DNA from: Allobosea sp.
GTDB taxonomy: Bacteria; Pseudomonadota; Alphaproteobacteria; Rhizobiales; Beijerinckiaceae
DNA length: 64,000 nt
Direction of reading: 5' to 3'
Assembly (NCBI RefSeq): GCF_017308075.1
Contig: NZ_JAFKFX010000036.1
Coordinates: 83,147-147,146 of the forward strand
Every line of letters begins with the position of its first letter. Positions within the stretch are counted from its first letter, which is position 1. The position numbers and the translations under genes are program-made. Shown piece by piece: positions 10,150 through 47,206 of this stretch. Under the pieces are notes generated by a model. It made no database searches. It was not told where the DNA came from and was given only the letters and a program-made list of their open reading frames with translations.

Positions 10150-10153
10150 GGCC

Positions 10154-10474
10154 TCAGCGCGGCGCGGCGACGATCACCGCTGCGCCGGCGAGGCAAAGGG
10201 CTGCGCCCGTGAGGTCGAAACGGTCCGGCGGCACCTTCTCGACCAGCCACATCCAGCCCAGCGACGCGACGATGTAGACCCCGCCATAGGCGGCGAAGGC
10301 CCGGCCGGCGGCGGCGCTGTCGATCAGCGTCAAGAGCCAAGCGAAGAGCGCCAGCGCCAGAAGCCCCGGCAGCAGCCACCAGGCCGATTTGCCGAGCTTG
10401 AGCCAGGCCCAGAACGAGAAGCAGCCGGCGATCTCGGCCAGCGCGGCCCCCAGATAGATCGCGAAACTGGTCAT
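10154..10474 (-). CDS. ynfA: YnfA family (UPF0060) membrane protein
   Basis: A 106-residue protein with four predicted helices and the family motifs [17 protein letters not shown] and [21 protein letters not shown]0060/YnfA proteins resemble small multidrug resistance transporters; substrate here is unknown. Its ATG overlaps the stop of the upstream nudix gene by 4 nt, so the two are co-translated. Confidence 0.9.
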
Positions 10475-10911
10475 GGCGCTGCGGCGAAGCTGGCCGCGAG
10501 CCGGGCGAAGACCGGACGGTAGGCTTCCGAGGCGAGCGGCGACAGCTCGCGGGCCTCGGCGAGGTCGAACCAGCGGATCTCGCTGTGCTCGTCATTGCTG
10601 ATCCGGGCTTCGCCCACCCAGCCGGTCACCGCGAACAGATGCCACAGAGCCGGGATGACGCCGTCGCTCTCGGTCGTCTCGATGGTGGTCAAGCGCGTGA
10701 AGCTGGTCGGCTCGATACCGATCTCCTCCTGCAATTCGCGTCTCAGTGCCTGCTCGATCGTCTCGTCGGGCTCGACATGCCCGCCGATCGTGTCCCAGCA
10801 GGACGGCCTGTTGCGGCGATGCGGGGCTCTCAGTCCGAGCAGGATGTCTCCGCCCCGGATCGCCAGGGCGCAGGCATATTCGACAGGCGCGGGACGTTCT
10901 GCGGTGCGCAT
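10471..10911 (-). CDS. NUDIX hydrolase
   Basis: A 146-residue protein with a complete Nudix box, G-x5-E-x7-REUxEExGU, seen as [19 protein letters not shown] followed by EEIGI (about residues 43-66). Nudix enzymes hydrolyse nucleoside diphosphates linked to another group; substrate cannot be assigned. The ATG at 10911 was chosen over a longer frame because the upstream part overlaps the gcrA terminator and lacks a conserved look. Confidence 0.88.
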
Positions 10912-33415: not shown

Positions 33416-34210
33416 TCAGTAGCCGGCGCTCTTGCCCGGCGCCGCGCGGAAGGGCTCGATCGCGGCCCGCAATTGCCGGATCATCAAGCCGACATCCGAG
33501 CCCAGCCCGATCATGCCGAACCCCTGTTCTCGGCGCCTGGCGATGTCGTCGGCGCTCGTGCCGATGACGCCGGAGGCGATGCCGCGCGCGGCCGCCAGCT
33601 GCTGCATGCGCAGGATGTCCTCGGCGATGCCCGGTCCTTCCCAGACGGCGAGATGGCCGAAGCTCTGCGACAGATCGGAAGGCCCGAAGAAGATCGCCTC
33701 CAGCCCCGGGACTGCGAGGATATCGGCGATGTTGCTGGAGGCGTCTGCGGTCTCGATGACCGGGATCACCATTGTCTCCTCGTTCGACGCTGCGACATAG
33801 CTCTCCATCGCCATGCCCCAGCGCAGCGCCCGCTCATGGCCGAGCCCGCGCTTGCCGGAGGGGGGATAGCGGGCATGGACGAACGCTTCGGCGAGTTCAT
33901 CGGCCGTGCGGATCAGCGGCAGCAAGACGCCATGGGCGCCGAGATCGAGCGCGCGCTTGATCGTGTCGACCGAGGCCGTTGGCACGCGCACGATCATGGC
34001 GAGATCGCTGCCTTTCGCGGCGCGGAGATGATCGACCACGTCGCGATAGCCGAGGCTGCCATGCTCCATGTCGACGCAGACCCAGTCGAGGCCGAGCTCG
34101 GCGGCGACCTCGGTGACGGTCGCGCTTTCGAGCGTGGCCCAGAGCCCGATCGTCGATCCGCCGGATTTCAGCTTCCGGCGCAGCGGATTCGAGAAAGACT
34201 GTGACGGCAT
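33416..34210 (-). CDS. HpcH/HpaI family aldolase
   Basis: A 264-residue class II (metal-dependent) 2-oxo acid aldolase. Motifs are LGLDWVCVDMEHG, GAHGVLLPLIRTADE, PVIETADASSNI and FGPSDLSQSFG, with metal-binding Glu and Asp. Relatives cleave 4-hydroxy-2-oxo acids to pyruvate or glyoxylate plus an aldehyde. It is the last gene of the leftward acid-sugar operon, 26 nt after dctM. GGAGG precedes ATG 34210; the longer open frame upstream reads through dctM in another frame and was rejected. Confidence 0.9.
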   Translation of the reverse strand: MPSQSFSNPLRRKLKSGGSTIGLWATLESATVTEVAAELGLDWVCVDMEHGSLGYRDVVDHLRAAKGSDLAMIVRVPTASVDTIKRALDLGAHGVLLPLIRTADELAEAFVHARYPPSGKRGLGHERALRWGMAMESYVAASNEETMVIPVIETADASSNIADILAVPGLEAIFFGPSDLSQSFGHLAVWEGPGIAEDILRMQQLAAARGIASGVIGTSADDIARRREQGFGMIGLGSDVGLMIRQLRAAIEPFRAAPGKSAGY

Positions 34211-34236
34211 GGTGGCCTCCGACGGTCCGGCTCTGC

Positions 34237-35526
34237 CTAATTCAGCAGGAGCCGCGGCAGGATCAGGGATATTTCCGGGAAGTAGGTGATCAGCAGCAAG
34301 GCGACCACCAGCGGCACATAATACGGTGCGACCGCCACCAGTGCCTTGTTGATCGGCACGTCCGCGACCTTCGCGACGGCGAAGAGCACCATGCCGACCG
34401 GAGGGGTCAGCAACCCGATCATCAGGTTCAGCACCATCATGATGCCGAAATGCACGGGATCGACGCCGACCGCGACCGCCAGGGGCAGCAGCATCGGCGT
34501 GAAGATGGTGATCGCGGCATTGGTCTCCATGAACAGGCCGATCACCAGGAGGAAGATGTTGATCGCCAGCAGCAGCGTGACCGGAGAGAGATCGAGCCCG
34601 CCGACGAGCGCGACCAGTTGCTGCGGGATCTGGGTGAAGACCAGCAGCCAGCCATAGAGCGCGGCGGCCGCGAGGATCATCATGATGACGGCCGTCTCGC
34701 GCATGGTCTCGCGCAGAACCTGGAACAATTGCGCCAGGGTGATCTCGCGATAGACCAGCATGGCGATGACGATCGCGTAGACGGCCGCGATGGCAGCGGC
34801 CTCTGTCGGGGTGAAGACGCCGCTCATCATGCCGCCGATGATGATGGCGGGCGTGAACAGCGGCGGGAGCGCCCTGAAGAAGCTGCGGACCAGCGCCGCG
34901 AAGCCAAGCCATTTCTGCGTCGGCAGCTGGCGGCGATGCGCCTGCCACCAGACCAGCATCATCAGCAGGACGCCCATCAGCAGGCCGGGCAGGATACCGG
35001 CGATCAGCAGCGCGGTCGCCGAGACATTGGCGACGACGGCATAGATGATCAGCGGGATGCTGGGCGGAATGATCGGGCCGATCGTCGCCGAGGCCGCCGT
35101 GACGCCGACCGAGAAATCGTCGGGGTAGCCGGCCTGCCGCATCGCCCGGATCTCGACCTGGCCGACGCCGACCGCGTCAGCGACCGCCGAGCCGGACATG
35201 CCGGAAAAGATGATCGAGGCGGCGATGTTGACCTGGCCGAGGCCGCCGCGCATGTGGCCGGCGATGCGATCGGCGAACTCGTAGATGCGGTCGGTGATGC
35301 CGCCGGTATTCATGATCTTGCCGGCCAGGATGAAGAACGGGATCGCCAGCAGTGGGAAGCTGTTGACGCCATAGACCATGCGCTGGGCCAGGATGGTGTA
35401 GGGGATGCCGTTGATGCCGCGCTCCACGAGCGTGACGATCAGCGAGGACAGGCCGAGCGCGAAGGCTGCGGGAATGCCGATGACGAAGAGAGCGAGCAGG
35501 CCGCCGATGAAAAGCGCCAGGATCAT
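34237..35526 (-). CDS. dctM: TRAP transporter large permease DctM
   Basis: A 429-residue, 12-helix TRAP permease. Signature stretches are VNSFPLLAIPFFILAGKIMN, GMSGSAVADAVGVGQVEI, GPIIPPSIPLIIYAV and GLLTPPVGMVLFAVAK. It imports a dicarboxylate, sugar acid or similar anion, driven by the Na+ or H+ gradient. ATG 35526 overlaps the dctQ stop (ATGA), so the two are coupled. Confidence 0.95.
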   Translation of the reverse strand: MILALFIGGLLALFVIGIPAAFALGLSSLIVTLVERGINGIPYTILAQRMVYGVNSFPLLAIPFFILAGKIMNTGGITDRIYEFADRIAGHMRGGLGQVNIAASIIFSGMSGSAVADAVGVGQVEIRAMRQAGYPDDFSVGVTAASATIGPIIPPSIPLIIYAVVANVSATALLIAGILPGLLMGVLLMMLVWWQAHRRQLPTQKWLGFAALVRSFFRALPPLFTPAIIIGGMMSGVFTPTEAAAIAAVYAIVIAMLVYREITLAQLFQVLRETMRETAVIMMILAAAALYGWLLVFTQIPQQLVALVGGLDLSPVTLLLAINIFLLVIGLFMETNAAITIFTPMLLPLAVAVGVDPVHFGIMMVLNLMIGLLTPPVGMVLFAVAKVADVPINKALVAVAPYYVPLVVALLLITYFPEISLILPRLLLN

Positions 35527-36026
35527 GATGTGGTTCCTTTGGCGCGGCCGGCCATGTGCATCGCCCGCTCGAACATGTCGAGCAGCAGCAGGAAGGTCAT
35601 GACGAGCATCGAAATGCCGACGGCTGCGTAGATGTAGCCCGTGCGAAACCAGTCCATGGTCGCCGTGTAGGTCTCCCAGGTCGCATTGGTCAGCAGCCAG
35701 CAGCCATAGGCGACCGAGAGCAGGAACCAGGAGATCAGAAGATCGACGAGCATGGCCACGGCATCGGCCGAGCGTCCGGAGACATAGCCGTCGATGATGT
35801 CGACCCGGATATGCTCGCGATTCATCAGGATGACGACGCCGCCGAAATAGGTGGTGAGCACGCAGGTGAGGCGTGCCAGCTCCTCCGTCCATTGCAGTGG
35901 CGCATTCAGGACATAGCGGAAGAAGACCTGCAGTACCGAAGACGTGATCATGATCAGGAATGCAGAAATCGCGAGTGTTTCAAAGACGAGATAGATCGTC
36001 CTTCGGATACCTTTTTCCGGGGCCAT
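35523..36026 (-). CDS. dctQ: TRAP transporter small permease DctQ
   Basis: A 167-residue four-helix protein with DctQ features: FFRYVLNAPLQWTEELAR and MNREHIRVDIIDGYV. It pairs with DctM. ATG 36026 follows GGAG; GTG 36029 is an alternative. Confidence 0.93.
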   Translation of the reverse strand: MAPEKGIRRTIYLVFETLAISAFLIMITSSVLQVFFRYVLNAPLQWTEELARLTCVLTTYFGGVVILMNREHIRVDIIDGYVSGRSADAVAMLVDLLISWFLLSVAYGCWLLTNATWETYTATMDWFRTGYIYAAVGISMLVMTFLLLLDMFERAMHMAGRAKGTTS

Positions 36027-36095
36027 CACATTCTCCAGGCTGCCTCAGATTCCGGGCCGCGACGAGAAGCAAGCGCCCCTCGCCGCGACGCGCGC

Positions 36096-37073
36096 TCATT
36101 TCAGGTATTTGGAGACGGCCTGGACGACGCTCGGTGCCCAGTTCTTCGAGAGTTCATCGATGGCGGGGCGAGCCTTGGCGATGAAGGGCGCGCGGTCGAC
36201 CTTGATCGCGGTCATCTTGTTCTTCTCCACTAGCGCGTTGCAGACGCCGTCGATCTGCTGCTTGGTGATCTCGTCGCCATATTTGGCGGCATCGACGGCC
36301 GAGCTGACGACGGCCTCGCGCAGTGCCGGGCTCAGGCTGTCGAGAAAGCGCGAGCTGATCGTCCAGTGCCAGACGGCCGGGACATGCGCCGTATAGATCA
36401 GGTGCGATTGGACCTCGTAGAGCTTGGCCTGGTTGATGTTGAAGCAGGGATTTTCCTGCGCCTCGATCACGCCCATCTGCAGGCCGCTGAATACTTCCGG
36501 CCAGGCGACGGGCGTCGGCCGGGCGCCGAGCTCGGACCAGACCCGGACCCAGGAGGGAATTTCCGGCACGCGCAGCTTCAGGCCCTTCAGGTCGTCGGGC
36601 GTCTTGATCGGCTTCTTGGCGGACAGGTGGCGGTCGCCGCGGCGGAAGAAGGCCACGAGGTCGAGCTTGGCCTTGTCCTTGATGAGCTTCTTGCCTTCGG
36701 CACCGGCCGAACTCGCCCAGAACTCGAAGATCTCTTCCGGTCCGGGGAACACGAAGGGCACGACGGTCGCGGCATAGGGCGGGGCGACGACATTCGGCAG
36801 CGTATCGCCGAACAGTGTCATCTGGACTTCGTTCACCGTCAGCTGTTCGAGATTGTCGCGCTCGCCGCCGAGCACGGCCGAATGGAAGATCTTGACGTTG
36901 ATCTCGCCCTTGCTGCGCTCCTTGACCAGTTCGACGAACTTGTCGACCGCCTGGAACTCGGGTCCCGGCGGCGAGGTGTGCATGGCGAAGCTGAGATCGA
37001 GGGCCTTTGCCGCCGGGGCGGCAAGCAGCATTCCGAGCACCAGGACAGATGCCGTCAGCTTGTTCTTGAGCAT
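36096..37073 (-). CDS. dctP: TRAP transporter substrate-binding protein DctP
   Basis: A 325-residue periplasmic binding protein with a signal peptide cleaved near AKA-LD. The family's carboxylate-binding Arg lies in LKGLKLRVPE, followed by PEVFSGLQMGVIEAQENP. The substrate is unknown; the gene neighbourhood suggests a four- or five-carbon sugar acid. An A-rich leader and GGAGG precede the ATG. A 92-bp gap to the previous gene may hold a separate promoter. Confidence 0.93.
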   Translation of the reverse strand: MLKNKLTASVLVLGMLLAAPAAKALDLSFAMHTSPPGPEFQAVDKFVELVKERSKGEINVKIFHSAVLGGERDNLEQLTVNEVQMTLFGDTLPNVVAPPYAATVVPFVFPGPEEIFEFWASSAGAEGKKLIKDKAKLDLVAFFRRGDRHLSAKKPIKTPDDLKGLKLRVPEIPSWVRVWSELGARPTPVAWPEVFSGLQMGVIEAQENPCFNINQAKLYEVQSHLIYTAHVPAVWHWTISSRFLDSLSPALREAVVSSAVDAAKYGDEITKQQIDGVCNALVEKNKMTAIKVDRAPFIAKARPAIDELSKNWAPSVVQAVSKYLK

Positions 37074-37165
37074 TGGTAGTCCTCCCTGTGTTGATTTTTC
37101 CTGCCTGTTTCGGCTTTTGCTCGCGTTTTCTTGTTTTTATCGGCCACGACGCTGCGATGGCCGGG

Positions 37166-37561
37166 TCATGTGCTGCCGGCGACCTCCGCGGCTTCCTTGA
37201 CGCTCTGGCCGACCGCGAGGCCCTTCTGCCGCGCGGTATTGCTGACGGCGCTGAGCACGCCGCTCAGCCAGGCATCCTGCGCGTCCCCGATCCGGGCCGT
37301 GTCATGCGAGGTGGTGGCGCAAGCGATGCCCTTGGCGTCGAGCATTGCGAGCGCGGCACGTCCGGCGCCGGCCTTGCCTCCGCCGGCGTCGCTGAAGACG
37401 ACCAGATGCGGCGGATGCAGCGCCGCGAAGGCACCCGAGATCAGCCCGCCATGCGAACCGCAAATGATGATCGCCCCCTTGTCCTGCGGTGCGATCAGCG
37501 AGATCGAATCCATCAGCACGACGCGATGGCCGGCGATATCGGCGACGGTCTCGTTCCTCAT
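37166..37561 (-). CDS. Conserved protein of unknown function, tandem paralogue B
   Basis: A 131-residue soluble protein. Key motifs are GSHGGLISG, VVFSDAGGGKAGAG and TTSHDTARIGDAQDAWLSG, then SAVSN near the C-terminus. The adjacent upstream gene encodes a paralogue with the same motifs in the same order. No signal peptide or membrane segment. The start ATG 37561 overlaps the upstream stop by 4 nt. Together they may form a heteromeric enzyme or binding protein for an acid-sugar intermediate; I recognise no named family. Confidence 0.8.
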   Translation of the reverse strand: MRNETVADIAGHRVVLMDSISLIAPQDKGAIIICGSHGGLISGAFAALHPPHLVVFSDAGGGKAGAGRAALAMLDAKGIACATTSHDTARIGDAQDAWLSGVLSAVSNTARQKGLAVGQSVKEAAEVAGST

Positions 37562-37986
37562 GGCCGGCCTCCGAAGATGCGGCGCACGGCCTGGCCGACC
37601 GGCTCGCCGAGTGCGAACCCGGCCTTTTCCGCCAAGGGATTGAGGGCTGACACCAGGCCCGATTGCCAGGTCTCGAGCGCGTTGCCGATCAGCGCGCTGT
37701 CGTGCGAGACGGTGCCGGCGATGATGCCGCGCGCCTCGAGATAGGGCAGCGAGGCGATGCCGGCATTCTCCTTGCCGATGCCGGCATCGTTGAAGAACAC
37801 GGCGGCGATCGGTACTTTGCCGGCATATTCGCCGGAGCTGATGCCGCCATGCGAGCCGGTCATCACCACCTGGCCGGCGTCCTCGGGCTTGAGATGCGCG
37901 ATCGTATCGACGGCGACGACGCGGCGGCTGCCGACCGTCGCGACGATCTCGCGCAGCATGACGAAATCGGGCTGTGCGGCGCTCAT
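37558..37986 (-). CDS. Conserved protein of unknown function, tandem paralogue A
   Basis: A 142-residue soluble protein sharing with its downstream neighbour the motifs GSHGGISSG, VFFNDAGIGKENAG, TVSHDSALIGNALETWQSG and SALN. The His in GSHGG, the Asp-Ala-Gly with a following Gly-Lys, and the SHD triad are identical in both and look functional. It overlaps genes on both sides by 4 nt (ATGA), so it is tightly built into the acid-sugar operon. Function unknown. Confidence 0.8.
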   Translation of the reverse strand: MSAAQPDFVMLREIVATVGSRRVVAVDTIAHLKPEDAGQVVMTGSHGGISSGEYAGKVPIAAVFFNDAGIGKENAGIASLPYLEARGIIAGTVSHDSALIGNALETWQSGLVSALNPLAEKAGFALGEPVGQAVRRIFGGRP

Positions 37987-38891
37987 GACCCGTACTCCCC
38001 GCCAAGGCCCGACATTTCCTGCATCAGGAGGGCGAGCGCGGAATTGTCGAGATCGGCGCGGCCGGTATTCGAAAGCACGCCGTAGAGCTGCTGGATCAGC
38101 GCCGTAGCCGGCAGGGCGGTGCCGGTCGCACTGCCGTTCTCCAGTGCCAGCTTCAGGTCCTTGCGCTGGAGCGTGACGCGAAAGCCGGCGGCGAAATTGC
38201 CGTCGAGCACGCGCTGACCGTGTAGGTCGAGCGCCTTGCTCTGGGCGAAGCCGCCGAGCAGCGCCGAGCGGATCTTGCCCGGGTCGACGCCGTTCTTGCG
38301 CGCCAGCGTCATCGCCTCGGCGACCGCCTGAATGTTGATGGCGACCGCGACCTGGTTGCAGACCTTGCAGACCTGGCCGGCACCGGGCCCGCCGATATGG
38401 CTGATGGTCTTGCCCATCGCCTCCAGGACCTTGCGGCAGCGTTCGAGTACCGCGGCGTCGCCGCCGATCATGATCGACAGCGTCGCGTTCTCGGCGCCCT
38501 GATAGCCGCCGCTGACCGGGGCATCGAGCATGGCGACACCCTTCGCCGCCAGCGTCTCGGCCATGGCCCGGGTTGCCATTGGCGAGATCGAGCTCATATC
38601 GATCAGCACGCTGCCCGGCCGCATGGCAGAGGCGAGCCCGCCCTCGCCAAGCACGACGGCTTCGACATCCGGCGTGTCGGGCAACATGGTGATGACGATG
38701 TCGGCAGCGCCGGCCGCCGCGGTGGAGCCGGCATCGCTCGCGCCTGCCGCGACCAGTTCGGCCACGGCGGCGCGGTCGAAGTCGTGCACGGCGAGGGGAA
38801 AGCCGGCCTTGCGTAGATTGAGCGCCATGCGGCGCCCCATGACGCCGAGGCCGATGAAGCCGATCTTCTGCGCTTGGGAGCTGGTCGTCAC
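37983..38891 (-). CDS. Beta-hydroxyacid dehydrogenase (3-hydroxyisobutyrate/L-threonate dehydrogenase-like)
   Basis: A 302-residue NAD(P)-dependent dehydrogenase. The dinucleotide motif is GFIGLGVMGRRMA; the substrate loop is DAPVSGGYQGAENATLS; the catalytic Lys lies in GAGQVCKVCNQ. Members adjacent to DUF1537 kinases, such as LtnD, oxidise tetronates at C2. The GTG at 38891 with AGGGG upstream gives a normal length; the longer frame overlaps the SDR gene. Confidence 0.9.
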   Translation of the reverse strand: MTTSSQAQKIGFIGLGVMGRRMALNLRKAGFPLAVHDFDRAAVAELVAAGASDAGSTAAAGAADIVITMLPDTPDVEAVVLGEGGLASAMRPGSVLIDMSSISPMATRAMAETLAAKGVAMLDAPVSGGYQGAENATLSIMIGGDAAVLERCRKVLEAMGKTISHIGGPGAGQVCKVCNQVAVAINIQAVAEAMTLARKNGVDPGKIRSALLGGFAQSKALDLHGQRVLDGNFAAGFRVTLQRKDLKLALENGSATGTALPATALIQQLYGVLSNTGRADLDNSALALLMQEMSGLGGEYGS

Positions 38892-38901
38892 GGCCCGCCC
38901 C

Positions 38902-39696
38902 TCAATGGGTCTTGCAGTGCAGGCCGCCATCGACGCAAAGGTCGATGCCGGTGATGTATTTGGATTCGTCCGAGGCCAGGAAGAGCGCGGCGTAGGCGAT
39001 GTCCCAGCCCTCGCCCATGCGCTTCATCGGCGTCACCTCGGCACGCTTGCGCTGCATCTCCGTGAAGTCGGTGTAATGCGCCTTCATCGCCTCGTAGATG
39101 TGCGGCGTGTCCATCAGACCGGGCAGCACGGTATTCGCCCGGATGCCCTTCTCGGCATATTGCATCGCAATCGCCCGGGTGAAGTGATTCACCGCCGCCT
39201 TCGAAGCGTAATACGAAATATAGTTGAAGTGCATCCAGCGGATCGAGGCCAATGACGATATGTTGACGATCGAACCGGAGCCCTGCGCTTCCATGATCGG
39301 CAGGACGCATTTGCAGGTGAAGAACATGCTCTTCAGGTTCACGTCCATGACGCGATCCCATTGTTCTTCCGTCATATCGACCGGGCCGCCTTCGATATTC
39401 ATGCCGACATTGTTGTGCAGCACATCGATGCGGCCCCAGGTCGACTTCACGGTGTCGACGACTTCGCGCACGCGATCGAGATTGACGACATCGGCCTGGA
39501 GCGCCAGCGCGGTGCCGCCCTCGCTCTCGATGATCTCCTTGGTGCGCTCGGCGGCGGCGAGATTGAGGTCGACGCAGGCGACCTTGGCGCCTTCGCGGGC
39601 GTAGAGCACGGCAGAGGCCTTGCCGTTGCCCCAGCCCTCGCCCACCGAGCCTGCGCCGAATACGAGCGCGATCTTGTTCTCCAGGCGCCTAGACAT
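38902..39696 (-). CDS. SDR-family NAD(P)-dependent dehydrogenase
   Basis: A 264-residue classical SDR. The cofactor site is FGAGSVGEGWGNGKA (an expanded variant of GxxxGxG), followed by LHNNVG and the catalytic ISSLAS...YYASK (Tyr-x3-Lys). The C-terminal YITGIDLCVDGG is standard. It likely oxidises a hydroxyl of the sugar acid or its lactone. It lies 10 nt before the beta-hydroxyacid dehydrogenase gene and 36 nt after the RLP gene. Confidence 0.92.
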   Translation of the reverse strand: MSRRLENKIALVFGAGSVGEGWGNGKASAVLYAREGAKVACVDLNLAAAERTKEIIESEGGTALALQADVVNLDRVREVVDTVKSTWGRIDVLHNNVGMNIEGGPVDMTEEQWDRVMDVNLKSMFFTCKCVLPIMEAQGSGSIVNISSLASIRWMHFNYISYYASKAAVNHFTRAIAMQYAEKGIRANTVLPGLMDTPHIYEAMKAHYTDFTEMQRKRAEVTPMKRMGEGWDIAYAALFLASDESKYITGIDLCVDGGLHCKTH

Positions 39697-39732
39697 CTGC
39701 TTTTCGTCTCCGATGAGTTCCAGAACCAGCGG

Positions 39733-40989
39733 TCATTTGGCGTGCCGCTCGAAGGTCTCGACCGCGCGTTTCAGCGCGGGCATCTCCTTGGCGGCCGTCG
39801 CGAGCGGAATGCCGGCGCGTGCCGCTTCCCAGGCGGCGCGCAGCGCACGGGTGCCGGCGGCGATGCCGTCGGGATGGCCGACGATGCCGCCGCCGCAGGC
39901 GTAGATCAGGTCGGTGGTGCGCAGCGCGGCGTAGGTGTCGTGGACCTGGAGCACGGTCTGCGCGCTCGACAGCACCGGCATGATGCGCGGATCGGCTTCG
40001 TTCAGCGGCGTCAGGCAGGCGCGGGCCGAGGCCAGAACCGATTCGTCGCTCTCGGCGAACTTGTTGCGCAGGCCGTTGACATGGATGTGGTCGACGCCGG
40101 CGAGACGGTGGATGAGCTGGTAGACGCGATAGTCGAAGCCGAGCATCGGCGCGCGCGAGAACAATGCCCAGCCATTGCGATGGCCATGGATGAAGAGCGG
40201 GAACTCGCGGCGCAGCGCCAGCACGGCCGGCGTTCCGACCCAGTTGAGGCTGAGCATGGCGCAGTCGCCGCCGGCCTTCAGGATCGCCTCGGCACCGCGG
40301 CGCATCTGGTCAAGGTCGCCGGTGATGTTGAAGGCGAACATGATGCGCTTGCCGGTGCGGTCGGCATGGCGCTCGATTGCGCCCATCACTGCCGCGATGC
40401 GCTGCTCCAGCGGGGCGAAGAGCGGGTTCGCGCTGAGTTCGTCATCCTTGATGAAGTCGATGCCGCCCTCGGCGAACTCCGCGACGACCTGAGCTGTGTC
40501 CTCCGGCAGCAGGCCGATGCTCGGCTTGACGATGGTGCCGATGGCTGGAAGCCCGTCGAGGCGCAGGCGTTCGTGCGTGCCGGCGATGCCGAAGCGCGGG
40601 CCGGGAAAGGCGTGGACGAAATCGTCGGGCAGCTCCAGATCGAGGAGGCGGATGCCGGAGAGCTCGCTCAACTCGCCGAGATTGCCGCAGATCGTCGCCA
40701 TCAGGGTCTGCAGATCCGGCCCGACATTGGCATAGGGCCAGGCGATCTCGACGCGCGCCTGCGTGTAGCGCGCCCGGCCGGAGGCCCGCGCGCCCGGCAG
40801 GCTCGGTACGGGGACCTCGGCCAGGCGTTCGATCCTTGCGACGCGGGCGCCGGCCCGCGCCGTCACCGCATCGGTCTCGGAGGCGAGCTTCATGAAGGTG
40901 CCGGTCGATTGCTCGCTGGCGATGGCGGCGGCCGTCTGCTCGACGGGCAGCGGCGTCTCGATCAGGTAATGGGCGCGAATCTCGGTCAT
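39733..40989 (-). CDS. RuBisCO-like protein (RLP), probable acid-sugar phosphate decarboxylase or hydrolase
   Basis: A 418-residue form IV RuBisCO-like protein. The active-site motif is GGIDFIKDDE with the carbamylatable Lys181 and metal ligands Asp183 and Glu184, all retained as in true RuBisCO. TIVKPSIGL replaces the catalytic TIIKPKLGL, with Lys155 kept. FIHGHRNGW (about 267-274) and a phosphate-loop-like GGGIVGHP follow. RLPs with intact KDDE in acid-sugar operons act on 3-oxo acid phosphates, for example in D-apiose catabolism; here the DUF1537 kinase would supply that substrate. ATG 40989 gives MTEIRAHYL, but a GTG at 41034 overlaps the upstream stop and cannot be excluded. Confidence 0.9.
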   Translation of the reverse strand: MTEIRAHYLIETPLPVEQTAAAIASEQSTGTFMKLASETDAVTARAGARVARIERLAEVPVPSLPGARASGRARYTQARVEIAWPYANVGPDLQTLMATICGNLGELSELSGIRLLDLELPDDFVHAFPGPRFGIAGTHERLRLDGLPAIGTIVKPSIGLLPEDTAQVVAEFAEGGIDFIKDDELSANPLFAPLEQRIAAVMGAIERHADRTGKRIMFAFNITGDLDQMRRGAEAILKAGGDCAMLSLNWVGTPAVLALRREFPLFIHGHRNGWALFSRAPMLGFDYRVYQLIHRLAGVDHIHVNGLRNKFAESDESVLASARACLTPLNEADPRIMPVLSSAQTVLQVHDTYAALRTTDLIYACGGGIVGHPDGIAAGTRALRAAWEAARAGIPLATAAKEMPALKRAVETFERHAK

Positions 40990-41001
40990 GATATTGATAT
41001 G

Positions 41002-41014
41002 AGGTATGATGTCT
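41002..41014. promoter_or_regulatory. Candidate GntR operator, copy 1 (upstream of the RLP)
   Basis: AGGTATGATGTCT, an imperfect palindrome centred on G41008 (8 of 12 flanking positions symmetric), lies 13 bp before the RLP ATG. The same 13-mer occurs at 41847-41859. Confidence 0.35.
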
Positions 41015-41030
41015 CTGGTGCGATGAAGGC

Positions 41031-41792
41031 TCACGGTTCCATGACGTCGCCGCCGCTCACCACCAGCGTGTGGCCGGTGATGAAGGCGGCGCGCTCGGAG
41101 AGCAGGAAGGCGACGCTCTCGGCGATCTCGGCCGGCTGGCCGAAGCGTCCCAGCGGCATCGCCGCGAGCCGCGTCGGCAGCAGGGTCTGGTCGAGGCGAC
41201 CGAGCATGTCGGTGTCGGTGAGCCCTGGCGCGACGGCGTTCACCCGCACATGCGGCGCCAGCGCCTCGGCGAAGCAGCGCATCATCGCGACGACCCCGGC
41301 CTTGGCGGCGGAATAGTCGATCTGGCGCGAGCGCGGTCGCAGTGCCGCGATCGAGCTCAGGCAGACAATGCTGCCGAAGCCCTGCGCCAGCATCTGGTCC
41401 TTGACCTGCTGGATGGCGATGAAGACCCCGTCGAGATTGACGCGAACCGTTTCGCGGAACTGGTCGAGCGTCAGTTCGGAGTGGTGGCGCGGGCCGGTGG
41501 TGCCGGCATTGGCGACGAGATAGGAGATCGGCCCCAGCCGTTCATTTGCGGCGTTCACGGCTGCGGCAAAGGCGGCCTCGTCGCCGACATCGGCCTGGAA
41601 CAGCTCGCAGATGCCGCCCGCCGCCTCCACCATCGCTTTGGTCTCGGCTGCGGCCGCATGATTGGCGGCGTAGTTGAGCGCGATCTTCGCGCCACCCGCT
41701 GCGAGCCGCAGGCAGCAGGCACGGCCGATGCCTCGCGCTCCACCGGTGACCAAGGCAAGCCGACCGGCAAATTCCGGCGCGATCTCCGTCAT
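41031..41792 (-). CDS. SDR-family oxidoreductase, first gene of the leftward acid-sugar operon
   Basis: A 253-residue classical SDR with TGGARGIGRA, VANAGTT, the catalytic Ser in CLSSIAAL, Tyr-x3-Lys in DYSAAKAG and GHTLVVSGGD at the end. It is the gene nearest the GntR regulator and divergent from it, so it probably starts the operon. Substrate unknown; an oxidation feeding the kinase/RLP steps is likely. Confidence 0.92.
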   Translation of the reverse strand: MTEIAPEFAGRLALVTGGARGIGRACCLRLAAGGAKIALNYAANHAAAAETKAMVEAAGGICELFQADVGDEAAFAAAVNAANERLGPISYLVANAGTTGPRHHSELTLDQFRETVRVNLDGVFIAIQQVKDQMLAQGFGSIVCLSSIAALRPRSRQIDYSAAKAGVVAMMRCFAEALAPHVRVNAVAPGLTDTDMLGRLDQTLLPTRLAAMPLGRFGQPAEIAESVAFLLSERAAFITGHTLVVSGGDVMEP

Positions 41793-41846
41793 TGCGTCTC
41801 CAACCCTGTCCGCTTGCCGCTCATTGACGGCTCGTCTTTTCGTTAA

Positions 41847-41859
41847 AGGTATGATGTCT
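41847..41859. promoter_or_regulatory. Candidate GntR operator, copy 2 (between SDR and GntR genes)
   Basis: The second copy of AGGTATGATGTCT, in the divergent promoter region. It contains TATGAT (41850-41855), a good -10 element for the rightward GntR-kinase transcript, so binding would block transcription. A TTGACG at 41824-41829 is a possible -35 with a rather long 20-bp spacer. Confidence 0.45.
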
Positions 41860-41931
41860 TGCCTTTTGAAAGGCTGTCAAGCTAAGTCTTGGCGAAAGAG
41901 CGGGCCGGTCAGCCCGCAGGCAGGTGAGACC

Positions 41932-42696
41932 ATGGACGCCGGAACAGGCCGCCAGGACATGATGAACGGCAGGGGCAAGAAGCAGCTCAGCCGCCTCGAA
42001 CTCGTCCTCGAACACATCAAGCAGCGCATCGCCGACGGCTCGCTCAGGCCGGGCGACCAGCTGCCGCCGGAGCTGGAACTGGCGCGGGAGCTGGGCTTGA
42101 GCCGCACGCCGGTGCGTGAGGCGGTCAAGGTGCTCGCGGCGGCCGGCGTCCTGATCGTGAAGCACGGCCACGGCACCTTCGTCAGCGCCGGCGCCCAGGC
42201 TTCCCTCGGCCAGCTTCTGCTGTTCGAGATCTACATGAAAGATACGACGCCGCAGAAGCTGATGGAGGTGCGGCTGCTCTTCGAGCGCGCCTGCGCCGAA
42301 CTCGCCGCTCAGCGACGGACCGAGGCGGATCTCGCGGAGATGCGTGCCTGTATCGAGCGGCTGCGCCCGCTCGCCGGCGCCGATCCGATCGATTTCGACG
42401 CGACGGTCGAGGCCGACCTCGCCTTCCACCGCGCGATCTACCGCGCCGCCAAGAACGAGCTGGTTGAGACGCTGGCGAACTTCGTGCTGACCATGGTCTC
42501 GGGCTGGCTGCGCCGCTCGCACGCCCATGGCGGGCTCGCCGACACGGTGCGGCTGCACGAGATCATGTACACGATGATCGAGACGCGCAATTCCGGCGGC
42601 GCGCGCGAGGCCTATGGCGCCGAGGTCAATATGGAGCATTTCCGCAGGATTCTCGAGCAGATGGGAGCCCGAGAGGACGAGGCTGATCGCGGATGA
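41932..42696 (+). CDS. GntR-family regulator (FCD type) of the acid-sugar cluster
   Basis: A 254-residue regulator: winged helix (LSRLELVLEHIKQRIADGSL, RPGDQLPPELELARELGLS, RTPVREAVKVL) and a FCD domain (EADLAFHRAIYRAAKN with metal-binding His, LHEIMYTMIETRN). ATG 41932 has AGGTGAG upstream; the further in-frame sequence overlaps the divergent promoter. It likely represses both the leftward operon and its own kinase operon. Its stop overlaps the kinase start by 4 nt. Confidence 0.92.
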   Translation: MDAGTGRQDMMNGRGKKQLSRLELVLEHIKQRIADGSLRPGDQLPPELELARELGLSRTPVREAVKVLAAAGVLIVKHGHGTFVSAGAQASLGQLLLFEIYMKDTTPQKLMEVRLLFERACAELAAQRRTEADLAEMRACIERLRPLAGADPIDFDATVEADLAFHRAIYRAAKNELVETLANFVLTMVSGWLRRSHAHGGLADTVRLHEIMYTMIETRNSGGAREAYGAEVNMEHFRRILEQMGAREDEADRG

Positions 42697-44003
42697 GCGG
42701 GCCGGCCATCTGCTTCTACGGCGACGATTTCACCGGCGCCTCCGAGAACCTCGCGCAGTTCCACAAGCACGGCCTGCGCTGCCGGCTCTACTTCGAGCCT
42801 GCCGATCCGCAGCGTGTCCGCGCCGAGGCGGCGGAGCTCGATGTCATCGGCATCGCCGGCGTCGCCCGCTCGCGCGCACCCGACCAGATGCGCTTGCTGC
42901 TCGGCGATGCGTTCCGGCTGTTCGGGTCGCTCGGCACCCGGCTCAACCAGTTCAAGATCTGCTCGACTTTCGATTCCGCGCCGCAAACCGGCAATTTTTC
43001 CGTCGCGATCGCCGAAGCGCTCAAGGTCTGGCCGGAGGCCTTGCTGCCGGTGCTGCCCGCCACGCCGGATTTCGGCCGCTACACCGCCTTCGCCAATCAT
43101 TTTTCGCGACATCGCGGCGAGATTCTGCGGCTCGATCGCAATCCGGCGCTGGTCGAGCATCCCTCGACACCGATGAACGAGGCTGATCTGCGCCGCCATC
43201 TCGCCAATCTTGGCGTCGAGGCGACGGCCGCGATCATGCTGCCGGAGCTCGGCCAGGATCGCGAGGCGCTCGCCCGGCTGATCGAGCAGCGCGGGGCCGG
43301 CGCCGTCCCGGTCGTGCTCGACACCGTCGACAATGCTCAGCTCGGCCATGTCAGCCGCGCGATCTGGCAGCTCGCGGCGAGGCGCGATGTGTTCAGCCTG
43401 GCGGCGCAGGGGCTCCCGCAAGGCCTCGGCGGCGCGGTTGCCGCCCACCTCGGCCGCAGCGCGGAACTGTCGTCTGGCCGGGTGCAGGACGGTCCGGGGC
43501 TCGTACTCTCGGGTAGTTGCTCCGCCCAGACCGCCGTCCAGCTCGCGGCGGCGGAAGCGGCGGGCTGGACCCTGATGCATCTGCCGATCGAGCGGCTCAC
43601 CTCAAGCGACGACGCGCAGCGCGCCGTCGCGGCCGTGGCTCCCACGATGGTCGCGGCCCTGCGCGCCGGCCGCTCGACCGCGGTCTTTACTGCGCGCGGC
43701 GAGGTCACGCAGGCTTTCGACCTCGCCCGCGCGCCCAGCGTTGGCCTCGCGCTCGCCGAGCTGTTCCGGCAGGCCGTGGGCGAAGCGGGGCTGCGGCGCG
43801 TCATCTTTGCCGGCGGTGACAGTTCGAGCTTTGCGATGCGCAGCTGCGGGGCCTATGCGCTCGAGATCGCGGCCTCCAGCGGCCAGCAGGCCAGCCATGT
43901 CTGCGCCCTGCTGGCCGATGACGAACTCAATGGCGTCGAGGTCGTCCTCAAGGGGGGGCAGGCGGGCAGCGACCGCTTCTTCCTCGATCCGATGTCAGGC
44001 TGA
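42693..44003 (+). CDS. Four-carbon acid sugar kinase family protein (DUF1537)
   Basis: A 436-residue kinase of the DUF1537 family, which phosphorylates 3-oxo-tetronates, D-threonate/erythronate, or 3-oxo-isoapionate. The N-terminal substrate domain starts ICFYGDDFTGASENL and includes CSTFDSAPQTGNF; the C-terminal nucleotide domain has VLSGSCSAQT, FAGGDSSSFAM and VVLKGGQAGSDRFF. It is coupled to GntR by an ATGA overlap and faces the RLP operon, whose substrate it probably makes. Confidence 0.92.
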   Translation: MSGPAICFYGDDFTGASENLAQFHKHGLRCRLYFEPADPQRVRAEAAELDVIGIAGVARSRAPDQMRLLLGDAFRLFGSLGTRLNQFKICSTFDSAPQTGNFSVAIAEALKVWPEALLPVLPATPDFGRYTAFANHFSRHRGEILRLDRNPALVEHPSTPMNEADLRRHLANLGVEATAAIMLPELGQDREALARLIEQRGAGAVPVVLDTVDNAQLGHVSRAIWQLAARRDVFSLAAQGLPQGLGGAVAAHLGRSAELSSGRVQDGPGLVLSGSCSAQTAVQLAAAEAAGWTLMHLPIERLTSSDDAQRAVAAVAPTMVAALRAGRSTAVFTARGEVTQAFDLARAPSVGLALAELFRQAVGEAGLRRVIFAGGDSSSFAMRSCGAYALEIAASSGQQASHVCALLADDELNGVEVVLKGGQAGSDRFFLDPMSG

Positions 44004-44065: not shown

Positions 44066-45862
44066 TCACATCGTCCGCCGGTCAGGTCGAGCCCGGTTGG
44101 GGCCGGCCAAGGCGCTCAGCTCCGCGACCAGGCGCTCTGGCGAGATGCAGGGAATGGCCCCGATCCTGGCGAGATCATCGGTGACGTCGACCGGCAGGCC
44201 GGAGTTCGAATCCTCGGGGATTTGGTTGAGGCGCCCGCCGATGCAGACCGGCAGGCTGGCGCCGGCGCGTTCGAGCGCCGCCAGCACCTCGGTCGCGAAG
44301 CGCAGGGCGATGCCATTATAGGTGCTGATCGCGATCACGTCGCAGCCATTCGCCAGGGCGATGGCGACGAGGTCGTCGGGATCGGCCGAGGTGCCACCAT
44401 CGACCGGCTCGGCCTTGAGCTGGGTCAGGAGATGCTCGATCAGGCTCTTGCCGTGCTCATGCACGTCGCTGCTGGCGACGCAGACCTTGAGCCCCGCCTG
44501 GCCGATGCCGCTGCGAACCGGCGCCGCGACCTTGTCGAGCCAGGCTTCGGTCTCATGGCGGAGCTCCTCGACCCATTCGGCCTCGACGAGCGCTCGGCGT
44601 CCGCCCCAGGCGGCGCGGTCCTGCGTCCCGACGCCGTAGAGCGCTTCCAGCCGTCGTGGGCCGATACGGCGCAGAGCCAGCATGGTGGCGGCGGGATCGC
44701 GGATGTCGACGCCGATCTGCGCAAGCCCGGCAAGGACACGGTCGCGGAACTGGCGTGCACCGGCGACGAGCTTTGCCGCCATCGCATCGACCGGCGCGAG
44801 ATCGATCAGGCCGAGGCTGGCGGAGGCATGCTCGACCAGCTTTCCAGCGAAGGTCTGGGCGTCGATGATCTCGTCGGTGTCGGGAATGCGCTCGTTCTCG
44901 GTGACCGGCACCGGGTTGATGGCGTGGCCGCTGTGCTGCCGGCGCAGCGACCAGATATCGGCCTGGAGATAGCTGGCGAGGCTGGCGAAATTGCCGGCCG
45001 GGGTCGACTTGTAGCTGACCGTGTTGCCGAAGATCATGCTGCCGGGCGTGTCGGTCACCTGCATCAGTGCGTGATGGAAGGCGAGCCGCACCAGCGGCGC
45101 CGTGAAATGATGGCCGTAGCAATGCGAGGCGCGGGCGCCGATCAGTTCCTCGACGATGTATTTCTCGACCAGCACCATGCCGAGCGCCGAGCTCATGTCG
45201 GAGAAAAGGCCGGCGAAGCCGTCGTCGAGATTGGAATGGACGAGAACCTCGACCGGCTGGGCCGCGATCAGGCCGAGCGCGGTCACGGTCGCCTCGGTCG
45301 TCGCGACGTCGTCGTCCCAGTCGGGCAGGCGGAAGGTGAAGTACTGGCCGAGATTGCCGACCGTGGTGACGCCCGCCGCTAGGGCCGCACGCGTATTCTC
45401 GACGGCCCCGGGAAGCCCGAGCATGAAATCGCCGAAATGCGCCGCGGCTGGGACGACGCCGGTGATGCGGGCGAAATCCTCCGGCCCGGTCAGCACGATG
45501 CCGGTGCCGCGCGGGCGCTTGTCGCGCTCGGCGATAGGATAGCCCATCGACCAGTCGAGGGTGATGCCGAAGCGGTCGACGGTGACGCCGCGCCCGGCAC
45601 AGCTCTCATACACGCTGCGGATCGCCTCCAGCGTGCGTTCGACGCTGCGAAAGCCGATATGGGCGTGCTGCATGATCCGGCCTTCGGCGGCCGTGCGGCG
45701 CTTGTAGTCGGCCTCGCAGGCGACCCGCGCCGTATCGAGGAAGAGATTGCGGCCGACCTGCCAGTCGCGCGCCATTACGGCGCCTTCGGTGAGCAGCTCA
45801 TGGCCCGGTCGCAGCCGCGGCGGGACGAGGTCGGCGAGCGGTGGCAAGACAGGCACGGTCAT
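44066..45862 (-). CDS. Fused cobalamin-dependent mutase-like protein (barrel plus B12-binding domain)
   Basis: A 598-residue protein. Residues about 1-440 resemble the catalytic barrel of glutamate (methylaspartate) mutase epsilon subunit, with GFRSVERTLEAIRSVYES and GHHFTAPLVRLAFHHAL. The C-terminal 140 residues are a B12-binding domain: DVHEHG (466-471) is the DxHxxG motif whose His replaces the lower ligand of cobalamin, followed by AISTYNG and CIGG (542-543). In glutamate mutase these are two chains; here they are fused. It probably catalyses a radical carbon-skeleton rearrangement. Substrate unknown; the adjacent aspartate-dehydrogenase-like gene hints at an amino acid. Confidence 0.8.
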   Translation of the reverse strand: MTVPVLPPLADLVPPRLRPGHELLTEGAVMARDWQVGRNLFLDTARVACEADYKRRTAAEGRIMQHAHIGFRSVERTLEAIRSVYESCAGRGVTVDRFGITLDWSMGYPIAERDKRPRGTGIVLTGPEDFARITGVVPAAAHFGDFMLGLPGAVENTRAALAAGVTTVGNLGQYFTFRLPDWDDDVATTEATVTALGLIAAQPVEVLVHSNLDDGFAGLFSDMSSALGMVLVEKYIVEELIGARASHCYGHHFTAPLVRLAFHHALMQVTDTPGSMIFGNTVSYKSTPAGNFASLASYLQADIWSLRRQHSGHAINPVPVTENERIPDTDEIIDAQTFAGKLVEHASASLGLIDLAPVDAMAAKLVAGARQFRDRVLAGLAQIGVDIRDPAATMLALRRIGPRRLEALYGVGTQDRAAWGGRRALVEAEWVEELRHETEAWLDKVAAPVRSGIGQAGLKVCVASSDVHEHGKSLIEHLLTQLKAEPVDGGTSADPDDLVAIALANGCDVIAISTYNGIALRFATEVLAALERAGASLPVCIGGRLNQIPEDSNSGLPVDVTDDLARIGAIPCISPERLVAELSALAGPNRARPDRRTM

Positions 45863-45887: not shown

Positions 45888-46682
45888 CTAGATCGCGATG
45901 CGATCGAACTGGCGGCGGATCGCGGCGGTCAGGCTCGCCGCCGTCAGGGCCGAGGTCTTCGGGTTGGCGGGTGAGGGCAGGTTGACGAAGCTCATCCGCG
46001 CGGTGCCGAGCGCGCTCGTCGCCTCGACCTCATGCGTGTTGCCAGCCGCGGCCGGGTCGGAGACGATCCTGACCGAGAGCCGGTCATGGCCGACGGCGAG
46101 CGCGATCGTCAGCCCGACATTGAGGTTCTTCGGATAGCGCCTGGCGGCTTCGCGCGCCGTGCCTTCGTAGAGCACGATCTCCGCCTGCGCGGCCTTCTCG
46201 GCGAGGCCGGCCGCCGCGAGCTCCGGAGCCCAGGCTGCCGGCGGCTTGCGCGAGGTGTAGCGGATTTCAGCGTCCTGCGTCTCGCGCAGCGCCGCGAGAT
46301 AGTCGAGGCCGCCGACCGCGCCGGAGGGAACGATCAGCCGGGCATTTCCGGTTTGCGCAGCCTCGGCGAGGCACAAGAGTAGGGCATCGTCGGCGAGCGC
46401 ACCGGTCGAGGCCGGCAGCGCCGGGATGCCGGCGGCGAGCACCTGCGGCAGGGTCTCGGCGACGGCGGCATGGCCCGCGGCCTCGACCACGAGGTCGGGG
46501 CGCCAGGCCAGCAGCTCGCCAAGGCTATCGAGCGCAGCGACGCCGGCAGGCAGGCTCGCCCGGCTCGGCGAGCCCGGTCGCAGCAGGCAGGCGAAGCCGA
46601 AGCCCTCGCCGCCGAGGCGGGCGTGAATGTCGCGCGCGATCGTGCCGAAGCCGATCAGCGCGAGGCGCCGCTCGCTCGCCAT
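45888..46682 (-). CDS. L-aspartate dehydrogenase-like (NadX family) oxidoreductase
   Basis: A 264-residue protein with an N-terminal Rossmann domain (ALIGFGTIARDIHARL), VVEAAGHAAV, and the aspartate dehydrogenase signature IVPSGAVGGLDYLAALRE and RYPKNLNVGLTIALAVG. The family oxidises L-aspartate to iminoaspartate with NAD(P)+. No nadA/nadC is nearby, so a catabolic role with the B12 mutase is more likely than NAD synthesis. It lies 25 nt before the mutase gene. Confidence 0.87.
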   Translation of the reverse strand: MASERRLALIGFGTIARDIHARLGGEGFGFACLLRPGSPSRASLPAGVAALDSLGELLAWRPDLVVEAAGHAAVAETLPQVLAAGIPALPASTGALADDALLLCLAEAAQTGNARLIVPSGAVGGLDYLAALRETQDAEIRYTSRKPPAAWAPELAAAGLAEKAAQAEIVLYEGTAREAARRYPKNLNVGLTIALAVGHDRLSVRIVSDPAAAGNTHEVEATSALGTARMSFVNLPSPANPKTSALTAASLTAAIRRQFDRIAI

Positions 46683-46693
46683 TCCAGCCTCCG

Positions 46694-47206
46694 TCAGGGC
46701 TTGCGCTGGTCGGCGGGCTGGGCCGCGAAGACCGTCTGGCGCTCGATCTCGAGCACGTTTTCGGGCCGCGGGAAATTCTCCGGCGCGGGCTCACCGGCCG
46801 AGCGCGGGCGGCCGATCAGGCGGAAGAAGTCCTCGAGACCGTTCGGCACGATCAGCCAGACCCAGTGCAAATCCTCGGTGCCGTCGTTGATGAACATGTG
46901 GCGGCGGCTCTTGCCGACGAAGATCGCCGTGCCGGGCACGGCCGGGACGTCCTTGCCGTCGAGCACGGCGCGGCCCTTGCCCTTGATGAAGTAGATGACC
47001 TCCTCATGGCGGTCATGGCTGTGTTCGCGCACATAGCCGCCGGGCGGCACGGTCTGGGTGCCGAAGGCCAGCGGGTTGTCCATCTTGACCTTGGACGGGT
47101 CGAGCGCGACCTCGATATGGCCGTTGGCCGGCACGGGCTGCCAGAAGCTGGTGGCGGTGCCGGGCTGGACGACGAAGGTCTCGCCGGGTTCGTGGACTTC
47201 GCTCAT
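46694..47206 (-). CDS. Cupin domain protein
   Basis: A 170-residue single cupin. Metal ligands lie in REHSHDRHEEVIYFIKGKG (HxH and Glu) and the second motif in KSRRHMFINDGTEDLHWVW. The family includes isomerases, dioxygenases and sugar-binding proteins; no reaction can be assigned. It is 11 nt before the aspartate dehydrogenase gene in one operon. Confidence 0.85.
   Translation of the reverse strand: MSEVHEPGETFVVQPGTATSFWQPVPANGHIEVALDPSKVKMDNPLAFGTQTVPPGGYVREHSHDRHEEVIYFIKGKGRAVLDGKDVPAVPGTAIFVGKSRRHMFINDGTEDLHWVWLIVPNGLEDFFRLIGRPRSAGEPAPENFPRPENVLEIERQTVFAAQPADQRKP

Follow-up and report, generated by a model that had tools for sequence, protein, structure and literature searches.

A conserved gene cluster in Allobosea sp. 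is a distinct variant of the RuBisCO-like protein/DUF1537 kinase acid-sugar module

Introduction

RuBisCO-like proteins (RLPs) show the rise and spread of RuBisCO chemistry, and few of them have an assigned reaction. A 64,000-nucleotide stretch of Allobosea sp. DNA (contig NZ_JAFKFX010000036.1), hereafter the window, in which positions are given below, contains a 12-gene cluster that includes an RLP, a DUF1537 acid-sugar kinase, and a tripartite ATP-independent periplasmic (TRAP) transporter. The locus raises two questions: which acid sugar is processed, and which reaction the RLP catalyzes. In a review (PMC6302742), two reactions are assigned to RLPs that act on 3-oxo-isoapionate-4-phosphate: decarboxylation, by the Agrobacterium radiobacter K84 protein; and transcarboxylation/hydrolysis, by the Xanthobacter autotrophicus protein.

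The cluster is real and conserved, and it constitutes a distinct variant of the RLP/DUF1537 acid-sugar module. As to its function, the evidence leaves about an even chance that it is an inducible acid-sugar catabolic operon in which the RLP would act on a kinase-made 3-oxo acid phosphate by transcarboxylation/hydrolysis, with a substrate that is probably not apionate.

Conservation and organization of the cluster

The same 12 genes are found at 82-97% identity in a second genome of the genus (G010, locus L098) and at 77-94% in a Bosea metagenome-assembled genome (MAG; L003). Ten of the 12 are found at 65-88% in Stella vacuolata (L004), whose cluster is missing the dehydrogenase and the aldolase. 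Because the same set recurs in these three genomes, the gene order is not a product of chance. The core common to all four is: two short-chain dehydrogenases (SDRs) flanking the RLP, two small paralogues (SHGG1 and SHGG2), and the TRAP genes, in the order SDR1-RLP-SDR2-SHGG1-SHGG2-TRAP; and a divergent GntR-DUF1537 pair. The solute-binding protein DctP is 87-95% identical in L004, L003, and L098. As the Stella cluster has neither the aldolase nor the dehydrogenase, these two are accessory, and the HpcH aldolase loses the defining role that a first-pass annotation of this DNA had given it.

The pairing of RLP and kinase is itself of a known kind. Among the best 80 of at least 571 RLP relatives in a scan of genome contigs, a sample that leans to near relatives, the fetched stretch carries a DUF1537 gene in 73, an ApnO-like gene in 54, and an ApnL-like gene in 19; of the 57 whose stretch is 19 kb or longer, 55 have DUF1537 and 42 have ApnO. 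Since 73 of these 80 loci pair the two, and since the best curated models for the window proteins are OiaX and OiaK, the pair belongs to the OiaX/OiaK kind, contrary to the initial proposal that the combination was undescribed. The accompanying genes do set the cluster apart from apionate clusters, as had been proposed: no ApnO or ApnL match lies beside the RLP and kinase in any of the four window-type clusters. The label ApnO is our assumption, as no curated model bears that name; the sole NCBIfam match of the ApnO-like protein of L058 is ApnL (376.2 bits, cut-off 750). A literature search found no paper on an RLP/DUF1537 cluster without ApnO, a weak negative, as most subscription papers, including two primary ones, were out of reach.

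The features of the cluster (33416-44003) are:

33416-34210, minus strand: HpcH/HpaI-type aldolase, GarL/HpaI-like (PF03328, 121.9 bits)
about 34237-35526, minus strand: TRAP large permease DctM (PF06808, 427.2 bits)
35523-36029, minus strand: TRAP small permease DctQ (PF04290, 78.5 bits)
36096-37073, minus strand: TRAP solute-binding protein DctP (PF03480, 208.5 bits)
37166-37561, minus strand: SHGG2, small paralogue of 131 amino acids, possibly a distant DUF1805-like domain
37558-37986, minus strand: SHGG1, small paralogue of 142 amino acids, for which an AlphaFold2 model was made
37983-38930, minus strand: beta-hydroxyacid dehydrogenase, tartronate-semialdehyde-reductase-like (PF03446 and PF14833)
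38902-39696, minus strand: SDR2, short-chain dehydrogenase (PF13561, 217.6 bits)
39733-41034, minus strand: RLP (PF00016 RuBisCO_large, 226.7 bits), KDDE motif intact; the true start is likely the ATG at 40989, giving 418 amino acids
41001-41015, plus strand: second operator-like palindrome copy, between SDR1 and the RLP ATG
41031-41792, minus strand: SDR1, short-chain dehydrogenase, first gene of the leftward run (PF13561, 189.0 bits)
41840-41861, plus strand: 22-base conserved block in the divergent promoter, from an alignment of four intergenic regions
about 41959-42696, plus strand: GntR/FCD regulator, divergent (PF00392, 71.6 bits; PF07729, 72.2 bits)
42693-44003, plus strand: DUF1537 acid-sugar kinase (PF07005, 140.1 bits, gathering score 25; PF17042, 79.4 bits, gathering score 28.3)

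Pfam and NCBIfam scans place every gene, open, at these positions, in agreement with the gene list and order first described. No class II aldolase family match was found among the 12 cluster proteins; the remaining genome was not searched for one.

Beside the cluster, on the minus strand, lie a 598-amino-acid B12-binding-domain protein (44066-45862; 31.7 bits for this domain against a Pfam cut-off of 32.1), an aspartate-dehydrogenase-like protein (45888-46682), and a cupin (46694-47206), followed by what appear by eye to be peptide-type ATP-binding cassette (ABC) transporter genes. The first three were considered as members of the system and rejected, as they have no matches in L003, L004, or L098.

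Family and phylogeny of the RLP

The best curated model for the RLP is OiaX (NF042437), at 439.5 bits, which is 63% of, and thus below, the cut-off of 700. The type III RuBisCO model gives 235.4 bits (cut-off 497.45) and the MtnW model (TIGR03332) 149.9 bits (cut-off 513.6), which disfavors placement in the methionine-salvage group, an outcome that the first-pass annotation had named as fatal to its proposal. The RuBisCO_large domain is complete with its KDDE motif, yet this is not a true RuBisCO: Ser replaces K177 and Trp replaces H298.

In a tree of 76 RLPs, built with a careful search and with supports reported as pairs, the four window-type sequences form a clade (100/100) on a long stem (0.81). 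Five Halomonas-type RLPs, whose stretches are without ApnO, join this clade at 96/86, and the two together are sister (96/93) to a 50-row group containing most ApnO-linked RLPs. The Xanthobacteraceae relatives, represented by three of the five such loci, fall in a neighboring clade, not in that of the window RLP. The three RLPs that exceed the OiaX cut-off, among 99 family genomes searched, form a separate clade (100/100) that excludes the window RLP. Four of the Halomonas-type clusters (L005, L006, L007, and L019) make up another variant without ApnO, and L025 has the same companion genes with a different RLP and kinase.

In a further group of RLP/DUF1537 loci (L023, L050, L053, L065, L031, and L127), referred to with their kin as the SDR clade, the stretch has no ApnO and carries an SDR or a zinc-type alcohol dehydrogenase and, mostly, a TRAP transporter. 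Forcing the window clade together with the SDR clade gives a tree 22.7 log units worse (p-AU, approximately unbiased test, 0.102), for groups defined post hoc, with the tree already in view. A single origin of the SDR2-RLP link for the two clades is neither favored nor rejected. The window's own genome also has a second RLP, 46% identical (L083, G000:C30:22500-42400; RLP at 9492-10760 of that stretch), which is accompanied by its own DUF1537 kinase, TRAP transporter, and, by eye, a glyoxalase-like protein. It falls in a basal RLP clade with L115-L117, which were seen in short stretches only.

Active site residues of the RLP

On an alignment of 102 RLPs, motifs were used to locate 20 RuBisCO positions, named by their spinach numbering. 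In its own numbering, the window RLP retains K196/D198/E199, N118, H285, R286, H318, K325, and S356. In spinach numbering, all four window-type RLPs keep 16 of the 20: E60, T65, N123, K175, K201, D203, E204, H292, H294, R295, H325, H327, K334, S379, G403, and G404. The remaining four are changed: K177 to Ser, H298 to Trp, G380 to Ser, and G381 to Ala. The distant row L123, which carries all 20 letters and was taken by eye to be a true RuBisCO, agrees with the window-type RLPs at the 16 kept positions.

These letters point to one of the two reported reaction types for the window RLP. At the 20 positions, all four window-clade RLPs have the majority letter of the 58 ApnO-linked, non-OiaX rows, with the exception of G381A (G in 53 of the 58). 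The three OiaX proteins that exceed the cut-off depart from that majority at six positions: E60D, N123G, K177A, H325Q, H327Q, and S379G/C, the last being G in two and C in one. The window RLP therefore resembles the group that holds the Xanthobacteraceae loci (L060, L062, L070, L074, and L081), unlike the OiaX decarboxylase. Because the residues altered in OiaX decarboxylases stay RuBisCO-like here, the predicted reaction is probably transcarboxylation/hydrolysis rather than decarboxylation. The first proposal, that the RLP decarboxylates or hydrolyzes its substrate, is narrowed by these residues: its hydrolysis branch is strengthened and its decarboxylation branch weakened.

The DUF1537 kinase and the distribution of ApnO

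The kinase is likewise closest to an apionate-pathway model, OiaK (NF042436), at 246.9 bits, or 35% of the cut-off of 700. This cut-off is strict, as the ApnO-linked kinase of L058 scores only 465.6. The second-best model is 3-oxo-tetronate kinase (120.9 bits, cut-off 350), and both DUF1537 Pfam domains exceed their gathering scores. The placement of RLP and kinase with the acid-sugar RLP/DUF1537 pair, made in the first description, is thus upheld by the best models for each.

In a 69-row kinase tree, from a quick search with supports from the Shimodaira-Hasegawa-like approximate likelihood ratio test (SH-aLRT) only and no bootstrap, the window clade, the Halomonas group, and L008 together form 10 rows that split from the other 59 at an SH-aLRT of 100. 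All kinases of the tree that are linked to ApnO or OiaX fall in the 59-row group. Within it, OiaX-linked kinases nest among ApnO-linked ones, even though the RLPs that accompany them stand far from those of the other ApnO-linked loci; kinase clades therefore seem to follow the substrate, and RLPs the reaction. A third DUF1537 gene lies on C38 of the window's own genome, in addition to the RLP/DUF1537 pair on C30.

Nine genomes were searched with an ApnO-like query, for which two positive controls, G400 (80%) and G401 (55%), gave full-length matches. No ApnO was found in the complete Stella genome (G395) or in Halomonas G397 and G399; Halomonas G398 gave a partial match only (E 5e-4), and the Bosea MAG G396 and G101 gave only partial, weak matches. 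The window's own genome does have an ApnO homologue, not linked to the cluster. By eye, it adjoins a peptide-type ABC transporter and an RpiR-type regulator, and no RLP or kinase match is present in 19.5 kb around it.

Accessory proteins of the cluster

Both SDRs contain Ser-Tyr-Lys motifs. SDR2 has an unusual motif, GAGSVGEGWGNGKA, that occurs exactly or slightly changed in eight open reading frames of the scanned loci, the window included. Relatives of SDR2 at 57-62% identity adjoin other RLPs (L031, L119, and L127), and one at 65% adjoins a fused SHGG gene without an RLP (L099). In the cluster, the two SDRs and the SHGG pair would stand in the place of ApnO.

The closest model for the beta-hydroxyacid dehydrogenase is tartronate semialdehyde reductase (TIGR01505; 333.0 bits, cut-off 340.75); the L-threonate dehydrogenase model gives 169.4 bits (cut-off 350). 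A glycolate-to-glycerate role was considered for this enzyme and is unsupported: no glyoxylate carboligase in its own genome exceeds the cut-off (best, 340.5 against 711.2). The aldolase, also present in L003 and L098 and not in L004, contains the stretches VDMEH, RVP, IET, and GPSDL, which we presume to be catalytic, and its best NCBIfam models are far under their cut-offs.

SHGG1 and SHGG2 are 42-44% identical to each other, and neither matches a Pfam or NCBIfam family at E 0.001. With the window's own genome counted, searches of 61 genomes and of 240 genomes of the class gave relatives in 7 and 24, respectively; 23 of the latter 24 have at least two matches. In the fused cases inspected, both units lie in one reading frame, and L010, L075, and G355 showed one gene each. 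Only window-type clusters were seen to carry the pair as two separate genes. The first proposal took this pair to help define the variant; all four clusters have it, but its wider family is not tied to RLPs: an SHGG gene is present in 5 of the 80 RLP loci, and no RLP was found in 25 other SHGG stretches of 10-19.5 kb (from 20 of the 23 other class-set genomes and 5 of 6 in the 61-genome set).

The AlphaFold2 model of SHGG1 has a mean predicted local distance difference test (pLDDT) score of 89.1 and a predicted template modeling (pTM) score of 0.84. A search of the PDB with this model gave no match at E of 0.001 or below. The first two ranks are SteA (E 0.076 and 0.11; probability 0.38 and 0.72), and the third is 1qw2 (E 0.15, probability 0.84), which we take to be a DUF1805 protein. 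Four fused SHGG homologues match DUF1805 (PF08827) under its cut-off of 29.5 bits, three at 23.7-24.7 and one at 14.2, while the window SHGG proteins have no match to it. A heterodimeric, DUF1805-like accessory enzyme is the probable identity of the pair. Searches for its function gave nothing significant by sequence or profile, in PHROGs, or in viral contigs.

Genes named by eye as thiamine pyrophosphate (TPP) enzymes recur near other SHGG genes, with an E1-beta-like cluster in 13 of 25 stretches and an E1-alpha-like one in 9 of 25. Assigning the SHGG function through these neighbors was tried and rejected, as they gave no clear function. Fused SHGG genes lie near TPP-like genes (E1 alpha/beta-like and acetolactate-synthase-like, by eye) in L100, L101, L166, L168, L175, L176, and L179, hinting at a wider carboxylic-acid pathway.

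Regulation

The 22-base block at 41840-41861 is identical in all four clusters, and its flanks in Stella are strongly divergent. It holds the 15-mer AAGGTATGATGTCTT (41846-41860), a probable GntR operator, which has no other occurrence in the genome when up to one mismatch is allowed. The copy at 41001-41015 differs from this main site by two mismatches. At up to three mismatches, a scan of the window gives two sites against 0.14 expected, with as many in 1 of 100 shuffles. Between SDR1 and the RLP ATG, the 15-mer is absent at up to three mismatches in L098, L003, and L004; ATCATACCTC, read by eye, occurs at this location in all four clusters. Twelve other RLP loci, scanned with up to two mismatches allowed, gave no copy of the operator. 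The sequence pattern points to control of both arms by GntR, and perhaps to separate control of the RLP.

Proposed pathway and alternatives

If the cluster is an inducible acid-sugar operon, the pathway likely involves: import of an acid sugar by the TRAP transporter; oxidation of the C3 hydroxyl to a 3-oxo acid by one or both SDRs, which would replace the ApnO of related clusters; phosphorylation at C4 by the DUF1537 kinase, as is known for this family; and conversion by the RLP of the resulting beta-keto acid phosphate, a compound akin to the six-carbon intermediate of RuBisCO. Judged by the retained residues, the RLP would shift the carboxyl group within the bound enediol and hydrolyze the C-C bond, yielding 3-phosphoglycerate and a small hydroxy acid; the known transcarboxylase/hydrolase RLP reportedly follows such a product scheme. 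Candidate substrates would be acids directly oxidizable at C3, such as a 2-C-branched tetronate or pentonate. GntR may regulate both arms through the conserved site. A more specific and more speculative version, offered tentatively, is that the kinase and RLP act on a phosphate other than that of 3-oxo-isoapionate, derived from an SDR-oxidized branched acid sugar. The RLP would run an internal RuBisCO cycle (CO2 release and recapture, then hydrolysis) that leads to 3-phosphoglycerate and a new hydroxy acid, and SHGG1 and SHGG2, as subunits of one enzyme from a new DUF1805-related family, would prepare or clear one of these compounds.

Several observations weigh against this assignment of reaction and substrate. 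H325Q is not confined to OiaX, being present in 4 of 9 SDR-clade rows and 2 of the 58 ApnO-linked rows. Clades of unassigned chemistry (the second RLP of the same genome, the SDR clade) keep most of the same residues, and the residues alone therefore do not prove the reaction. Treating ApnO-linked RLPs as the Xanthobacter type would rest on the five Xanthobacteraceae loci, not on the Xanthobacter protein itself. L025 combines the Halomonas-type epimerase, LacI, and TRAP, with no ApnO in its stretch, with an RLP and kinase of ApnO-linked groups, which goes against a strict link between clade and gene set; L045 and L059, of the ApnO-linked RLP group, are also without ApnO in their stretches. SHGG genes occur in three clusters that bear ApnO (L010, L058, and L075). 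Finally, the unlinked ApnO homologue of the window's own genome (68%; G000:C20:45730-46554, L186) has a counterpart in G010 (67%, full-length), and in these two genomes the window pair could therefore still receive 3-oxo-isoapionate.

The last of these points leads to one alternative, in which the unlinked ApnO makes 3-oxo-isoapionate, a diverged OiaK and a transcarboxylase/hydrolase RLP act on it, and the SDRs serve apiose or lactone steps. The ApnO homologues, the best NCBIfam models (OiaK and OiaX), and the presence of SHGG in ApnO clusters are all consistent with this route. It is nonetheless unlikely, as the complete Stella genome has no ApnO, three Halomonas genomes with the sister pair have no full-length one, and the kinase falls apart from the 59 rows that include all ApnO-linked kinases of the tree. 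The genomic setting of the Allobosea ApnO, with no RLP or kinase match nearby and a peptide-type ABC transporter beside it, also argues against it, and the C30 pair and the C38 DUF1537 gene could serve that ApnO instead.

A different substrate is invoked by the suggestion of the first-pass annotation that the RLP replaces OtnC, decarboxylating linear 3-oxo-tetronate 4-phosphate to dihydroxyacetone phosphate. The second-best kinase model and the lack of a class II aldolase among the 12 proteins fit this suggestion, and RLPs are cited for the breakdown of four-carbon or other sugars in two papers (PMC7325909 and PMC9833052, both citing Zhang 2016). Set against this, the dehydrogenase is nearer tartronate semialdehyde reductase (333) than L-threonate dehydrogenase (169.4) and is missing from the Stella cluster, and the RLP keeps residues lost in OiaX decarboxylases, making OtnC replacement quite improbable. 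Hardly credible is a role for the RLP in methionine salvage or a related thio-sugar pathway, as enolase or isomerase, with the kinase nearby only incidentally. Some RLPs do perform such reactions, according to the review (PMC6302742), but the model scores (MtnW 149.9 against OiaX 439.5 bits) nearly refute it here, as does the joint presence of RLP and DUF1537 in 73 of the 80 nearest loci.

Comparison with known systems

If the inducible-operon reading is correct, a second substrate would be available for the transcarboxylase/hydrolase type, making substrate-setting and chemistry-setting residues comparable. A testable rule follows: the kinase clade tracks the substrate, and RLP residues, N123, H327, and S379 above all, track the reaction. 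As four RLP/DUF1537 groups are without ApnO in the fetched stretch (the window type, Halomonas, the SDR clade, and the second RLP of L083), several further acid-sugar routes may exist.

OiaX/OiaK, of D-apionate catabolism, places the same two superfamilies side by side and supplies the best NCBIfam models for both window proteins. The window proteins are far under those cut-offs, their cluster is without an ApnO or ApnL match, and the RLP is unlike OiaX at E60, N123, K177, H325, H327, S379, and 381. DUF1537 tetronate and threonate pathways, in which OtnK and DtnK partner OtnC or PdxA, share the kinase superfamily, TRAP transporter, and dehydrogenase with the window cluster; in the latter, an RLP takes the place of the class II aldolase or PdxA partner, and the kinase is far under the cut-offs of the models. 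For the SHGG proteins, the likeness is to DUF1805, through the weak profile match of the fused homologues, under the Pfam cut-off, and the weak fold match to 1qw2.

The Xanthobacter autotrophicus transcarboxylase/hydrolase, presumably the protein named OiaT, is compared through the five Xanthobacteraceae loci rather than through the Xanthobacter protein. The RuBisCO-type letters are kept in the window RLP, in these loci, and in nearly all 58 ApnO-linked rows. The window RLP is 52-53% identical to the five and outside their clade, its cluster is without ApnO and ApnL, and its kinase is in a different clade. The Halomonas RLP-DUF1537-TRAP clusters (L005, L006, L007, L019, and L009) have the sister RLP (96/86), a kinase of the same clade (100), and no ApnO in their stretches. 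They carry a NAD-dependent epimerase-like protein, which is not in the short stretch of L009, and LacI, whereas the window cluster carries two SDRs, the SHGG pair, and GntR.

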